From assembly GCA_024742875.1 (NCBI GenBank), contig JANSXP010000003.1, positions 124,001 to 188,000 of the forward strand: a stretch of 64,000 nucleotides of DNA. Reading direction: 5' to 3'. The translations under genes and the position numbers were made by a program. This document shows, piece by piece, positions 3,748 to 9,201 of the stretch (its first letter is position 1; each line of letters begins with the position of its first letter). This DNA is from Planctomycetaceae bacterium. Its GTDB lineage: Bacteria > Planctomycetota > Planctomycetia > Planctomycetales > Planctomycetaceae. The notes under the pieces are model-generated. The model was not told where the DNA came from. It worked only from the letters and a program-made list of their open reading frames with translations, and searched no databases.

Positions 3748-5304
3748 TCATTTGCCCGGGGCGACTGAGTTTGCGACCGCTGACCACGACGTTCCGATCT
3801 TCAGTTCGTCCAACTGCCATACTCCGTCCTTGCCCGAGTTCACACGGATTGAATTGAATCTGCTGACACGAGCCGATTGAACACCACTTACCGTCCACAC
3901 GGTCGGCTCTGTTTGATCGACAAGATCACCCGGTACGTAGACCCGCATAGTGGCTGCACTATTCGGTTCTTCAACGGCGTATCGAAAGACCAGTAGGCAT
4001 GTTTGGTCAACAGGAACGGGAAACGCCGTTTCAAGGACTTTGCCAGCGTTGTTGACGTAAGGTGCGCCTTTCGAGGTGATCCCCCAAGAGACACTGTGTC
4101 GCCTCGTGTATCGAGGAGAATTTGAATCTGGTTCCAACAGAACTTGAAACGAAGCCTGACCATCCGAACTGCTCTTCGTTCGATGCACCAGAAGCGACAT
4201 AAAAATGCTGCTATGCGACGAAACGTCGATGGGAGTATCGAGTTTCCTCCGCATGTCGATCCCGTCTTGTACCGACAGCAATCGGTGGCCCTCACGATCG
4301 ATTCCGAACACCGAGTCATTCGGGGCGTCAATCACTTCGGCGAGTTGTCCATGCCCTCGGCCGGCTGACTCCCAGCCGCCGGCCCAGCCGAATCCGCTGC
4401 GACCCCGACGAAGTTTCCCTGCGAGATTCTCAAAACCATCGTAGACGAGCAACTGCGCTCCTGCAGCGGCGCGAATCTCCGCTTCGACTCGGCGTACGAA
4501 CTGTCGCTTTCCGAACGGGATTCGGTGAGGACGATGCGGCGCATCGCGAGAAAATCGTCGAGCTTCACCCGAGATGATGCGATCCTCGAAGTTCGAGGAG
4601 GTGTCCGTTGTCGTCCAGATAACGCTGCCGTCAAAGACATGAACTTCGGTCGACTCAGAATTCAACGAGACCGCGTACTGTGTGCCCTCGTCAACAATAT
4701 TTGCCTCGGGCGTCGTCAGCAGAAAACCATTGGAAACTTCCGTCACATCGACGAACACCGTACCGGCAAGGAGTTGTGCGGAGTCTGAGGAATCGATTTT
4801 CAACAAGCATGGAGACTCTAAAACGACATCTGTCCCCGAATCGAACCGTAGTTCAGCGACGCCAGCCGTGAGTTCCATTAAACCGCGTGAAAAGCGGCCA
4901 TTCGCGGGTGGTATCTGTTTCCACTCGCAATCTGCTTGTTGAATCAGGTGGCCGCACTCGATGACAGGATCAAGGCCCTGTCGCGGTCCTTCGGCAATCT
5001 GAGTCTGTTCGCCACGTTGTGATTGCTTCAACCAGACAAATGAAATCAACAGTACCGCAGCGATCGCAGCGACTGCGCCAACCAATGCCCACGTTGATCT
5101 CCGCCCGTTCACGACGGGATGTGCTTCTAATACGTCTTCCGAAGCCCACGTGTGGAGCGAGGCCTCTAGATCCATTCGTTCGCGAAACTTCGCTCGTGCC
5201 TGAGGATCATCCCGCAAAAGTTCTTGCAGCTCGGAATGATCCTCTTCGTTAATCGTTCCGTTAATAAGGTGGTTGATTATCTGGGAAAGAGAATCATCGC
5301 TCAT
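3748..5304 (-). CDS. FecR-domain membrane protein with LamG-like C-terminus, putative anti-sigma factor
   Basis: 518 residues. Residues 1-65 are an acidic cytoplasmic segment of the kind that binds ECF sigma factors. Residues 71-92 form a single membrane helix. Residues about 150-255 match the FecR domain (L-x-A-G-T-V-F-V-D-V, then F-x-L-x-T-P-x-A-x-I-x-D-x-G-T-x-Y-A-V). The C-terminal 220 residues begin with a Y-D-G-F-E motif and resemble the LamG-like domain seen behind FecR in many planctomycete proteins. The start codon overlaps the stop of the sigma gene by four bases, so sigma and regulator are translationally coupled. The inferred role is to hold the sigma factor at the membrane until an extracytoplasmic signal arrives. 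Confidence 0.85.
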   Translation of the reverse strand: MSDDSLSQIINHLINGTINEEDHSELQELLRDDPQARAKFRERMDLEASLHTWASEDVLEAHPVVNGRRSTWALVGAVAAIAAVLLISFVWLKQSQRGEQTQIAEGPRQGLDPVIECGHLIQQADCEWKQIPPANGRFSRGLMELTAGVAELRFDSGTDVVLESPCLLKIDSSDSAQLLAGTVFVDVTEVSNGFLLTTPEANIVDEGTQYAVSLNSESTEVHVFDGSVIWTTTDTSSNFEDRIISGEARRFSRDAPHRPHRIPFGKRQFVRRVEAEIRAAAGAQLLVYDGFENLAGKLRRGRSGFGWAGGWESAGRGHGQLAEVIDAPNDSVFGIDREGHRLLSVQDGIDMRRKLDTPIDVSSHSSIFMSLLVHRTKSSSDGQASFQVLLEPDSNSPRYTRRHSVSWGITSKGAPYVNNAGKVLETAFPVPVDQTCLLVFRYAVEEPNSAATMRVYVPGDLVDQTEPTVWTVSGVQSARVSRFNSIRVNSGKDGVWQLDELKIGTSWSAVANSVAPGK

Positions 5305-5855
5305 GACATTCCTCCTTCCTTCGCCAACTGCAGGCGAATGCAGGCAACCAGTTTATCGCGCAGCCGCGCCAATTGTTTGTAGAGTGCGGTTCGTTCTCGC
5401 CCAAGTCGCTCAGCAACCTGCGTGATGGACTCGCTCCCCGAGTAACATTGACGCAGGATCTTCTGCTGGCGATCGGACAGTCGATTCAGGCATTCTCGCA
5501 TCGCATTCAAACGCGAATCGGAAGCAACATCTTCTTCACATGCCTCTTCCGCCAGCAGCGCCGTAAGTTCATCATCAAAGTGCAGCTTGCTGCGCCGTTG
5601 TACCTTCAGGAAATTGCGGACTTCGTTGTGTGCGATCCCACATGCCCAGTGAAAAAAACTGCTATCGTTGTCGAACTGATCCATCTTCTTCCACAGAATC
5701 ACGCTGGTCTTCTGGAAGACATCTTCGGCATCAGCGCGGTTGACCAACTGCTTCAGGATAAACGCAAATAACCGATGCCGGTGTTCCATCAACAGGCTGA
5801 CGAAAACATCAGCTGATTTAATGTCACGGTCGTCGCTGGGATCCGGCAGCTTCAT
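5301..5855 (-). CDS. ECF-type RNA polymerase sigma-70 factor
   Basis: 184 residues, the usual ECF length. Region 2 spans roughly residues 25-95 and includes the typical A-D-A-E-D-V-F-Q segment for core binding and -10 recognition. Region 4 spans 125-175 with a helix-turn-helix around I-T-Q-V-A-E-R-L-G-R-E-R-T-A-L-Y-K. The R-x-R-x-A-L-Y-K-x-L-x-R-L-R-x-x-L ending is typical of the Rhodopirellula/Verrucomicrobium sigma family. It lies between the thioredoxin-like gene and FecR with four-base overlaps on both sides, so the three genes form one operon. The promoter it reads cannot be deduced here. Confidence 0.9.
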   Translation of the reverse strand: MKLPDPSDDRDIKSADVFVSLLMEHRHRLFAFILKQLVNRADAEDVFQKTSVILWKKMDQFDNDSSFFHWACGIAHNEVRNFLKVQRRSKLHFDDELTALLAEEACEEDVASDSRLNAMRECLNRLSDRQQKILRQCYSGSESITQVAERLGRERTALYKQLARLRDKLVACIRLQLAKEGGMS

Positions 5856-6415
5856 TTCAAGAGGTCCGGGATTTCTTTGATCACTGCGGTTACCGCTTTG
5901 GCATTCAACGATTCTGAGGTGAAGGCATGATTTGTCCTCACCTTGGCTTCATTCCAAAACATGATGGTCACATCGGCCTGCTGCGCGATTTTCATCTTCG
6001 GTGGACCGGTAAGTCCATCGAACAAAGTCAGAGGAACGTGTTTCAGCCGGTGCTTTGCAGCTACGTTTTCCAATGTTTCTCGGTCAGACTCGGGATCGAG
6101 CGAAAGTAGCACAAGAAAGACCTGAAGCTGCTCGTCTCTGTGTGTTTCAACCTGTGCATCGAGTTGACGCACCAGCGATACCACTTCGTCGGTAATCTCA
6201 CGCGCAAAGACGTTCACAACCGGTCGGCTGCCGTAACGACACGCGTAGCAAATCGACTTTCCCTTTGCTGGACCTGTCACGTCTTCTACATGGAAGGATG
6301 CAATTGTCTCCCCGGGCTGGAGACCGGACTTTAGGGAATTGCTCTCGTCCCCAAAGGTTGGAGCTGCGAGAAAAGTTGCGGCTAAGACCGGTAAAGCGAA
6401 GTATTTATTCTTCAT
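5852..6415 (-). CDS. Exported thioredoxin-fold protein with a CxxC motif
   Basis: 187 residues with a Sec signal peptide (positive N-terminus, hydrophobic stretch ending near residue 22). After the signal comes G-P-A-K-G-K and then C56-Y-A-C59 followed by R-Y-G-S-R-P-V-V, an arrangement seen in redoxin/SCO-like thioredoxin folds. The later segment V-P-L-T-L-F-D-G fits the strand preceding the cis-proline region. It probably acts as an extracytoplasmic thiol-disulfide protein. It is the first gene of the sigma/FecR operon and lies 57 bp downstream of the UGA-containing thioredoxin-PDZ gene on the same strand, so redox function and regulation may be linked. Confidence 0.7.
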   Translation of the reverse strand: MKNKYFALPVLAATFLAAPTFGDESNSLKSGLQPGETIASFHVEDVTGPAKGKSICYACRYGSRPVVNVFAREITDEVVSLVRQLDAQVETHRDEQLQVFLVLLSLDPESDRETLENVAAKHRLKHVPLTLFDGLTGPPKMKIAQQADVTIMFWNEAKVRTNHAFTSESLNAKAVTAVIKEIPDLLK

Positions 6416-6472: not shown

Positions 6473-7705
6473 TCAATCCAGTTTCATCGTGAGTCGCAGT
6501 TTGCGGCCATTGCGAATGACGTTTACCTTGACGGTCTCGCCCTTCAAATAATTGCTCCGCACGTGAAGCAGGAAATCATAGGCCGACATGTCGAGCTCAT
6601 TATCGTCAAATCCGAGTATCACATCTCCTTCGCGAATTCCCGCTTTCTTTGCTACGGCCGGTACGCTGGCCTTCTGCCGAAACGCCAGTTGAGTTTTCGT
6701 TAGGCCAAGTTCGTCGCGTTCGCCTTCTTTCAGATCCTTGCCGTAAATTCGGCAGGTCGCCACAAAGTTCTGCAGCGATGGGCGCCAACTAATGTCCGTA
6801 CGTTTCCAGCGATCCGCCAGAGTCAATTTCGCCGAACGCTGGCGGCCATCCCGCTGCCAAGTCACATCAATTGAACCGCGTTTCGGGGCTCTGTCGAGCG
6901 CAAAACGAACATCTGCTTCTGAGTGAATGGGAACCTGATTGACGTTGAGCAGCCGGTCACCAGCCTCAATGCCCGCTGTTTCCGCAGGCGAATCCGCCGC
7001 GACTTTTGTGACTATGTGACTGCGATCAACGTCCAGCTTTAGCCCAACGTTTTCCGGCAACGGATACCGAAACGCAAGTTCGGTGTTCCATTTGCCTTTG
7101 CGATCAAGATCGTTGTAGACGACTTCTTTTGCCTGATGGCAATGAATACATCTGCCGAGACCTCGTGGCGGCGCAACCTCACGAATCAAAAAAGGTTTAC
7201 CGGGCTGCTTGGGCGCAAATCGCGGGGAGTCTGATTTGCATTCAACCAACACAGATTTCATTGTGCTGCGCAGACCCTCCAGCGATTGACGTGCATCGGG
7301 CCCTTGTTCGCAGCGACCTCCATAGCGAGCGTACACCTGCTGCTCGGCGTTCATAAACAGAACCATGAAGGTAAGGTCGTGGTCAAAGTCGAATACCTTT
7401 AGGTCCAATGGTTCGATCGCTGCCAATCGCACGCGAATGAATTCGTCCGCGGTGTCTTTGAGTTCTTCGAGACGAACAACCTGCTCGTCAAATTGTGAGC
7501 AGTCCACTCAGGGGACGCATCGGAGCACGACCATCATCGGCTTTTTAGCTTCGTCGGCTTCCTGCCGAGCCTGTTGGTAATCGAATCGCCAGTTGTTTGC
7601 GATGGCTTCGCGGCTCTGTGCCGGGTTATTGCGCCCTTGAGCAAACAAGTGTGTCGCGGTGAGCAGTGTGAGGCCAACGGCCAATGTCGAAGCAAATCGA
7701 GTCAT
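6473..7705 (-). CDS. Thioredoxin-PDZ protein read through an in-frame UGA, candidate selenoprotein
   Basis: Read from the ATG ending at 7705, the frame has a signal peptide (residues 1-22), then K-K-P-M-M-V-V-L-R-C63-V-P, a UGA at codon 66 (7508-7510), and continues without a break as V-D-C69-S-Q-F-D-E-Q-V to codon 410. UGA as residue 66 gives a U-x-x-C redox motif exactly where thioredoxin folds have CxxC. The sequence on both sides of the UGA is coherent: a thioredoxin-like fold (about 30-155), one CxxCH at 186-190 (possible heme c), then two PDZ domains (about 220-300 and 325-408). I recall a RefSeq family called Trx7/PDZ domain-containing (seleno)protein that matches this layout; this was not checked. 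A conventional caller would split it into a short peptide and a GTG-started 344-residue protein. The alternative is a nonsense mutation of a Cys codon. Confidence 0.75.
7473..7510 (-). promoter_or_regulatory. SECIS-like stem-loop starting at the UGA
   Basis: On the coding strand, the 38 bases starting with the UGA fold into one hairpin. CTGCTC pairs perfectly with GAGCAG around a ten-base loop, there is one A-G mismatch, and seven outer pairs (many G-T) bring the UGA itself into the base of the stem. Bacterial SECIS elements lie immediately 3' of the UGA inside the coding region, as this does. The apical loop does not begin with the G usually found at its first two positions, so the match is partial. 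Confidence 0.45.
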
Positions 7706-7775: not shown

Positions 7776-8441
7776 CTACTCATCATCAAACGGACTTTTG
7801 CTTGTGCCCGATGACTTTGCCGCTGGTTTGTTCTCGGCGGCAGCTGGTTCTTTGCTGCCAGTTGGTTGTTCGAGTTCCGGCCGTTGTCCTCGCCCAAAGC
7901 CACCGCGGCCTCTGCCTTGCGGCTGGCCGGCGCCTTGTTCTGACTGGTTGCCTCCAAATCGACCGCGTCCGCCAGCCATGCCGCCTCCGCCGTGACCATG
8001 GCCGTGGCCACCTCCGGTCGCACCAGCCTCTTCTTTGGTCAGCTTGCCGTCTTTGTCTTCGTCAAGCCGCGCGAACGCCAGAATGGCGTCTTCCATTTCA
8101 GCTTTAGTGATGACACCGTCGCCGTCCGCGTCGATTGCCGCGAAAAGCTTGTTCGTTGAGCCACCGCCTCCAAATCGCCCTCCGCCAGCAGAGCCTCCCG
8201 CTTGTGCCTGCCCACCGCCAAATCGACCTCCCCGTCCACGTCCGCGACCTGCGGGTTGATCTTCTGCGGTTCCTCCAAAACGGCCGCCGCGTAAACGGCC
8301 CGCTGGCTCTATCGTCTCGTCTTTCTTTTTCTGGTCTTCCGTCTGCGGCCGAAAGCCACCACGGCCGCGTTGAGCATTGGCATCGGCCGCCAGGACCAGA
8401 CTGAATGCAAACGTGAGAGTGAAACACAGGGCATTGCGCAT
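7776..8441 (-). CDS. Exported EF-hand protein with Gly/Arg-rich low-complexity regions
   Basis: 221 residues from the ATG ending at 8441, chosen because it is directly followed by a clean signal peptide ending A-N-A-Q; an upstream in-frame ATG would add a non-signal extension. Two canonical EF-hand loops lie in tandem: D-A-D-G-D-G-V-I-T-K-A-E and D-E-D-K-D-G-K-L-T-K-E-E, both with the acidic ligands expected for calcium. They are flanked by G-R-G-R-G-G and G-H-G-H-G-H stretches. It is the first gene of a run on the minus strand, 70 bp ahead of the thioredoxin-PDZ gene. The role is unknown; calcium binding is likely. Confidence 0.75.
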   Translation of the reverse strand: MRNALCFTLTFAFSLVLAADANAQRGRGGFRPQTEDQKKKDETIEPAGRLRGGRFGGTAEDQPAGRGRGRGGRFGGGQAQAGGSAGGGRFGGGGSTNKLFAAIDADGDGVITKAEMEDAILAFARLDEDKDGKLTKEEAGATGGGHGHGHGGGGMAGGRGRFGGNQSEQGAGQPQGRGRGGFGRGQRPELEQPTGSKEPAAAENKPAAKSSGTSKSPFDDE

Positions 8442-8640
8442 CGTTGATTTCCTTAGATATTTCGAGGATTGCAAGGTGTAGTCGTACGGCCACATTCGAA
8501 TTGGACGCAAGAAAATGAGATTTTGTGAACCGGAGCGATCTAAGGGCAGAAATCAGCAGAAAATCTGGAATTCACGCGGGCAATCATCGCCCAAACGTAC
8601 GAACACAGGGCAATCCCATTCCGAAAGCAGATTGGCTCTC

Positions 8641-9201
8641 ATGATCAGAAGATACTCGATACTTGTTGTAGTACTGGCATTCACAACAGCAGTGCAGGCG
8701 GATGAGACTTTCGTAATCCTGCATAGCGTAAGCGGCAATCGCATACAGGTTTCGCCGGGCTCAGCTGGCCAAGGTATGGGCCCACGTGGTCGCGGAGCGG
8801 GCGGAATGGAAGCTCAGCCGACTCAGGGAATAGGTCGCGGTCGTGGGAGGTCCGGTGGCGGGGCCGCTGGTGGCGGTCGGGGGCGAGGAAGATTCGGCGG
8901 TCAAACCCAGCCGAAAACAACAACCGTGAATGTGCCTTCAACAGCAAAGATCACGACGGCGATGCGTGAACGACGCACGTTTGAGTTCCGAGTCATGGGT
9001 GAAATCGCTGGTGGACTTCGTAATCCAATCTTCACTCGGATGAAGGAGCCGATGCAGGCTCGGATTGTGACCAGGAACAACACAATCACAGAAATCAACG
9101 TCATTACCGGGGATACAGACATCAATCAGACATCGACTTCATCAAGTGGCGAAAGCATCATTGCAGTGAAACCCAAGCGTCCACCGATGAAAAGGAAATA
9201 G
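8641..9201 (+). CDS. Exported Gly/Arg-rich protein of unknown function
   Basis: 186 residues from the ATG at 8641, followed by a hydrophobic signal peptide ending A-V-Q-A. Residues about 40-90 are low complexity (G-R-G-R, G-G-A-A-G-G-G), much like the divergent EF-hand gene. The C-terminal half is compact and beta-rich (T-T-T-V-N-V-P, R-I-V-T-R-N-N-T-I-T) with a basic tail. There is no EF-hand. It ends three bases before the DUF1549/DUF1553 gene, so it heads that operon. I do not recognise a family. Confidence 0.6.
   Translation: MIRRYSILVVVLAFTTAVQADETFVILHSVSGNRIQVSPGSAGQGMGPRGRGAGGMEAQPTQGIGRGRGRSGGGAAGGGRGRGRFGGQTQPKTTTVNVPSTAKITTAMRERRTFEFRVMGEIAGGLRNPIFTRMKEPMQARIVTRNNTITEINVITGDTDINQTSTSSSGESIIAVKPKRPPMKRK

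Follow-up and report, generated by a model that had tools for sequence, protein, structure and literature searches.

The minus strand of the window, by which we mean the whole 64,000-nt stretch of DNA analyzed here, carries between positions 7705 and 6473 a single frame of 410 residues once TGA is read as U. The translation of the reverse complement opens with MTRFASTLAVGLTLLTATHLFAQG and continues to residue 410, with a TGA stop as codon 411. The sole internal TGA is codon 66 (7510-7508), in the context RCVP-U-VDC. The plus-strand frame across 6473-7705 contains TAA and TAG stops and four TGAs. A preliminary description had reported one frame to residue 410 broken by the UGA alone, in the order C-V-P-UGA-V-D-C; the translation agrees with both points, and the strand, which had not been named, is the minus strand. 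The encoded protein starts with a signal-peptide-like N-terminus (residues 1-22, positions 7640-7705), judged by eye, and a helix at residues 2-22 was predicted in the AlphaFold2 model. A Thioredoxin_7 domain follows (residues 39-120, 7346-7591; Pfam PF13899, 8e-12, with thioredoxin-fold matches of the domain model), and alignments and translation place in it the redox motif C63-V-P-U66-V-D-C69 (7499-7519) with the UGA codon at 7508-7510. Further downstream lie a CxxCH motif (CIHCH, residues 186-190, 7136-7150) and two stretches matching PDZ (PF13180). The first PDZ domain, the best of the two stretches, covers residues 228-296 (6818-7024); the second lies at about residues 340-409 (6479-6688), a placement estimated from the 348-408 matches of the NCBIfam search. 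This is the thioredoxin, CxxCH and double-PDZ layout described before. The CIHCH motif has the form of a c-type haem attachment site, and C186, C189 and H190 are kept in all 47 rows of alignment A2; it is a possible haem site.

The protein scores 418.4 bits with the NCBIfam model NF041199, Trx7/PDZ domain-containing (seleno)protein, for which the curated cut-off is 300, and it aligns to positions 2-390 of the 390 in the profile. Since this one family is matched from residue 38 to 409 straight through the UGA, the continuous frame is more than chance. The family's domain order, Thioredoxin_7 (PF13899) followed by PDZ (PF13180, two stretches), is present, and NF041199 is evidently the RefSeq family to which the preliminary description had referred. 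The Pfam listing for the protein contains no trypsin-like peptidase domain, as an HtrA/MucD serine protease would have, and DegP-type NCBIfam models matched the PDZ part alone with scores far below cut-off. The nearest named relatives, with 64% and 57% identity, come from Planctomycetota metagenome-assembled genomes and point to a planctomycete as the source of the window, and a scan for relatives returned seven loci, five planctomycete and two verrucomicrobial. Verrucomicrobiota also carry the family, with Cys at residue 66 in both members read (L236, L237), and a Gemmataceae member (L233) has the UGA and the same downstream hairpin as the window gene.

Just downstream of the gene, on the minus strand, lies a gene for a 187-aa protein containing CYACRYG (5852-6415), for which NCBIfam gave no match and Pfam none over cut-off. 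It is followed on the same strand by genes for an ECF sigma factor (TIGR02989) and a FecR-domain protein (3748-5855), and a glycine/arginine-rich EF-hand protein and a 228-aa Gly-rich protein are encoded divergently at 7776-9201. In genome G013, the flank of L078 has matches in the order of the window: to FecR, the ECF sigma factor and the Trx7 gene, then to a portion of the EF-hand protein, to the 228-aa protein, and to DUF1549/1553 and DUF1501. The partial EF-hand and 228-aa matches thus keep their order there, and at the place corresponding to the 187-aa gene no match was found. In the other 13 flanks, DUF1501 or DUF1549/1553 homologs alone recurred, in five of them. Across the 14 flanks, which span 4.8 to 14 kb and in some cases stop at a contig end, the neighboring genes gave no functional clue, and Rfam (gathering threshold) and tRNA scans of the whole window returned no matches.

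The genome to which the window belongs (8.18 Mb, 168 contigs, 98% complete) encodes the machinery for selenocysteine (Sec) decoding. It contains one tRNA-Sec over cut-off (77.8 bits; anticodon TCA according to ARAGORN) as well as selB (334.8 bits), selA (485.5 bits) and selD (256.3 bits), each over its curated cut-off, so that the search for selA, selB, selC and selD suggested earlier found all four. The matches listed at E up to 1e-60 include four family members from this genome: two UGA forms, namely the window gene and L044 on contig C43, and two Cys forms, one over (C134) and one under (C149) the family cut-off. L044 (C43:28850-29959) is thus a second UGA-bearing Trx7/PDZ gene. Across 98 related genomes, UGA forms occurred in 18 of the 52 with selA over cut-off versus none of the 46 others, among the matches listed (Fisher p 2e-6, uncorrected for relatedness). 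The selB gene was over cut-off in 15 of these 18 genomes; G015, G021 and G055 had shorter sub-cut-off selB matches of 190 to 208 bits across 133 to 165 positions. The association is one-way, because a UGA form of NF041199 is absent from the matches listed for 34 of the 52 selA genomes.

Of these 98 genomes, 62 had a match over the NF041199 cut-off. The 83 matches over cut-off comprised 23 forms with TGA, the window gene included (21 with one TGA, two with two), and 60 stop-free forms. These family counts, as well as the 61 and 31 given below, were made by eye among the matches listed, namely at most 17 scored candidates per genome in this search (for instance 17 of 51) and at most four in a search of 392 genomes. 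Codon 66 was TGA in all 23 UGA forms, all of which were read, and Cys in all 60 stop-free forms, read in two sets of 23 and 37. The in-frame UGA therefore aligns with a conserved Cys of the homologs, as the preliminary description had expected, and in none of the relatives read is this position occupied by a different stop codon. Two more distant, sub-cut-off members (L075, L076) have Ser at residue 66; they were left out of alignment A2 and of the 147-row tree. L074 and L077, second copies of L044 and L039, were dropped from row comparisons. The 37 further Cys forms stand outside the 149-row set and the trees, and the motif pattern applied to them required Cys or Sec at residue 69, that for the 149-row set Cys or Sec at residues 63 and 66; no row failed either pattern. 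In comparisons with two relatives and with the paralog, synonymous changes predominate on both sides of the UGA, with synonymous sites near saturation and few upstream codons (31-35); between window gene and paralog, pS was 0.53 and pN 0.37.

In a 49-row tree, the window protein falls into a group made up exclusively of Sec forms, where it joins L059 of G013 (100/97; 64% identity). The Sec label requires five changes on this tree. L070 is a Sec form inside a mostly Cys clade. Two Cys forms, L071 (G039:C59), nested among Sec rows, and L036 (G094:C7), paired with a Sec row, come from genomes without selA over cut-off, and the hairpins described below are broken in them (2 and 4 of 8 pairs). Cys together with a decayed hairpin in genomes with no selA over cut-off is what loss of Sec decoding predicts, and we infer that both changes ran from Sec to Cys.

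A bacterial SECIS element is a hairpin shortly past the UGA with a G early in the loop. In the window gene, a SECIS-like hairpin with an 8-bp stem and a GGU loop lies at 7471-7489 on the minus strand, and a hairpin with this loop, 21 nt past the U of the UGA, is present in all 23 Sec forms. All eight pairs form in 16 of them, seven in five and six in two, i.e., 175 of 184 cells are paired. By comparison, 26 Cys/Ser rows have 52 of 208 cells paired, and another 36 Cys rows 64 of 288 (L106, in which two motifs matched, was left out of the latter count). Resampling of synonymous codons in the Sec rows gave a mean of 112 of 184, and 175 was reached in none of 2000 resamplings; 24 Cys rows had 45 of 192 cells paired, not above their own resampling mean of 50.5. 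When the partner was slid by one to three columns, paired cells fell from 95% to 57% or less. With respect to covariation, two pairs showed changes on both sides, amounting to 16 cells, and none of 500 shuffles was as high; two of five measures, the count of both-side-changed pairs and the count of further pair types, stayed within the shuffles. For the window row alone, 28 of 5000 synonymous resamplings also paired 8 of 8. The 20-nt hairpin by itself has a predicted energy of -8.7 kcal/mol (z -3.85). Within the surrounding 51 nt, however, a competing structure has the lowest energy (z -0.82), and the idea that the hairpin is the most stable fold of this stretch was therefore rejected. Consequently, the fold is ambiguous in that context, and the assignment of the hairpin rests on the comparison of the 23 Sec forms.

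In a second sample of 392 genomes drawn from the phylum, 110 had a match over the NF041199 cut-off, among the matches listed. By the same counting, 92 matches over cut-off bore TGA. Two TGAs were counted in 61 of them and a single one in 31, and of these 31 a pair belongs to the window's own genome; the other 90 TGA matches are from genomes of other classes. Outside the class of the window genome, 61 of 90 UGA members over cut-off therefore carry UxxU at codons 63 and 66, among the matches listed. We fetched these 90 rows together with eight TGA rows under cut-off and two Cys rows. UxxU at 63 and 66 was present in each of the 66 rows with at least two TGAs, and in each of the 32 rows with a single TGA that codon was number 66; L192 carries a third TGA, 261 codons past residue 66. 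Over both samples, UGAs three codons apart were seen in 68 of the 121 UGA rows read (L039, L062, L131-L192 and L225-L228), and Sec at 63 without Sec at 66 in none of the 121. A hairpin threshold that included a second register with an AGTT-type loop was passed by 56 of 68 UxxU, 39 of 53 CxxU and 2 of 26 Cys rows, against synonymous resampling means of 15, 11 and 1.7, respectively; 26 of the 121 UGA rows missed it. Nine rows (L189-L191, L208, L212, L213, L217, L219 and L220) share a GGCCAGTTGGCC-like stretch after the UGA and pair one base out of register, with the AGTT-type loop in place of GGU. A FastTree phylogeny of 147 rows, in which 52 of 144 inner branches were weak, requires at least 20 changes of residue 63 among the Sec66 rows. 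On balance we favor, with some reservation, the view that the commonest UGA form outside the window's class is a UxxU double selenoprotein, in which one hairpin would serve both UGAs and a diselenide may form beside a possible haem c and two PDZ domains. This form would have been gained and lost repeatedly, and the window gene would be the CxxU form of a switchable site.

The AlphaFold2 model of the window protein had a mean pLDDT of 91.2 (83.2 for the thioredoxin domain), and in both models the motif is flanked by a strand and a helix. Because all 50 rows listed by Foldseek for the full-length model were PDZ-type proteins, the thioredoxin domain was also modeled alone; its best thioredoxin-fold match was 3f9u (Z 13.0, rmsd 2.6, 115 aligned residues). 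AGR2, AGR3, ERp18 (TXNDC12), DsbH and other thioredoxin-fold proteins share the fold with VIA-align Z values of 11.1 to 12.3 (about 12 for AGR2 and ERp18), and AGR2 gave a profile match to the window protein at 4.5e-8. The likeness is limited to the thioredoxin domain, and a common fold does not show a common function.

In the profile alignments to AGR2 and ERp18, residue 66 coincides with the first Cys of the thioredoxin CxxC, the position at which the preliminary description had seen the UGA; the match obtained with the single sequence is weak (E 0.36). That description had proposed an exported U-x-x-C redox protein; in this reading Sec66 and Cys69 would be the redox pair and Cys63 accessory. 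In its favor, besides the profile alignment, every row of the 47-row alignment A2 keeps Cys69, and so do the 37 further Cys forms, for which the motif pattern demanded Cys or Sec there. However, of the 147 rows with Cys or Sec at 66, ten have something other than Cys at residue 69 (6 UxxU, 3 CxxU, 1 CxxC), whereas all 149 rows have Cys or Sec at residue 63, the one that also turns into Sec. Because Cys69 is lost in these ten rows and residue 63 in none, the conservation pattern makes residues 63 and 66 (CxxU) the more likely redox pair, and the pairing of 66 with 69 is unlikely though still worth considering. The published tables name the motif CxxU as well (in the passages of PMC13188914 and PMC9312934).

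Taken together, the family match, the sel genes, the exchange with Cys, the co-occurrence with selA and the hairpin indicate that UGA 66 very probably encodes selenocysteine. Three other readings of the codon were considered. Two separate genes, or regulated termination at the UGA with restart at the GTG behind it, would agree with the output of a mechanical ORF finder, which yields a 344-aa ORF (6473-7507) starting at the GTG directly after the TGA. The split would, however, fall within the thioredoxin redox motif, stop-free relatives have one frame across it and the downstream half would start without an N-terminal hydrophobic segment, which leaves this reading very improbable. The ORF finder result does bear out the earlier warning that the gene is likely to be mis-annotated as two, since a plain gene finder splits it at the redox site; correct annotation needs the Sec reading. 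Equally slight is the chance that the UGA is read through as another amino acid, e.g., Trp: nothing was found in favor of it, the aligned residue is Cys and not Trp in 60 of 60 stop-free relatives over cut-off, UGA forms are confined to genomes over the selA cut-off (both among the matches listed), and the window gene itself terminates at UGA. Least credible is a pseudogene with a recent nonsense mutation, since the frame is indeed interrupted by a stop but the same UGA occurs in 23 genes of 18 genomes among the matches listed, including a second gene of the same genome, its sharing by distant relatives speaks strongly against it, downstream change is mostly synonymous and the hairpin is conserved.

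We therefore regard the gene, with a probability of roughly 0.96, as coding for a putatively exported NF041199 protein with a thioredoxin fold, CxxCH and two PDZ domains, into which SelB and Sec-tRNA, guided by the hairpin, would insert Sec at UGA 66. SelB with Sec-tRNA would place Sec at this codon with the help of the in-coding hairpin 21 nt downstream. Sec66 and Cys63 would be the likely redox pair with Cys69 as an accessory residue, the CxxCH motif may carry haem, and the PDZ domains probably serve to bind a partner protein or the end of a peptide.

Members of the family have been reported before. According to passages of the Global Ocean Sampling survey of 2008 (PMC2398784), a CxxU selenoprotein named 'putative secreted serine protease MucD' was represented by two Sec and 12 Cys sequences; a 2021 paper describes the 'MucD' selenoprotein as a PDZ fusion (PMC9402790, text passages), and a 2022 review lists a PDZ protein with Thioredoxin_7 and the motif CxxU (PMC9312934, text passages). 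A table in the 2026 review PMC13188914 has NF041199 with CxxU and one Sec, citing the 2008 survey as reference 61. Planctomycetes with Sec machinery and selenoproteins are covered by PMC4807772 (2016), whose text passages do not name the NF041199 family. Through reference 61, NF041199 is apparently the 'MucD' of 2008. The window protein has the CxxU motif and PDZ in common with that selenoprotein, as far as the passages of PMC2398784 and PMC9402790 go; the name refers to a protease, in contrast to the window protein with no matched peptidase domain. The text passages cited here state no function for the NF041199 family. As in print, the UGA form of the window gene is CxxU, and with its full-length match over cut-off and its domains it shows no difference from the family as tabulated in PMC13188914; some relatives have two UGAs (UxxU), compared to the one Sec given there. 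The UxxU form was not found in print, the text passages, including those of PMC13188914 and PMC9312934, giving CxxU only, which is not proof of absence. Since NF041199 selenoproteins are in print, the window gene is a new member of an already catalogued bacterial selenoprotein family. The prevalence of UxxU and the preference for the 63/66 pair are additions to the known picture of NF041199, a natural experiment in which Cys, Sec and double Sec have changed repeatedly at one redox site within a phylum.
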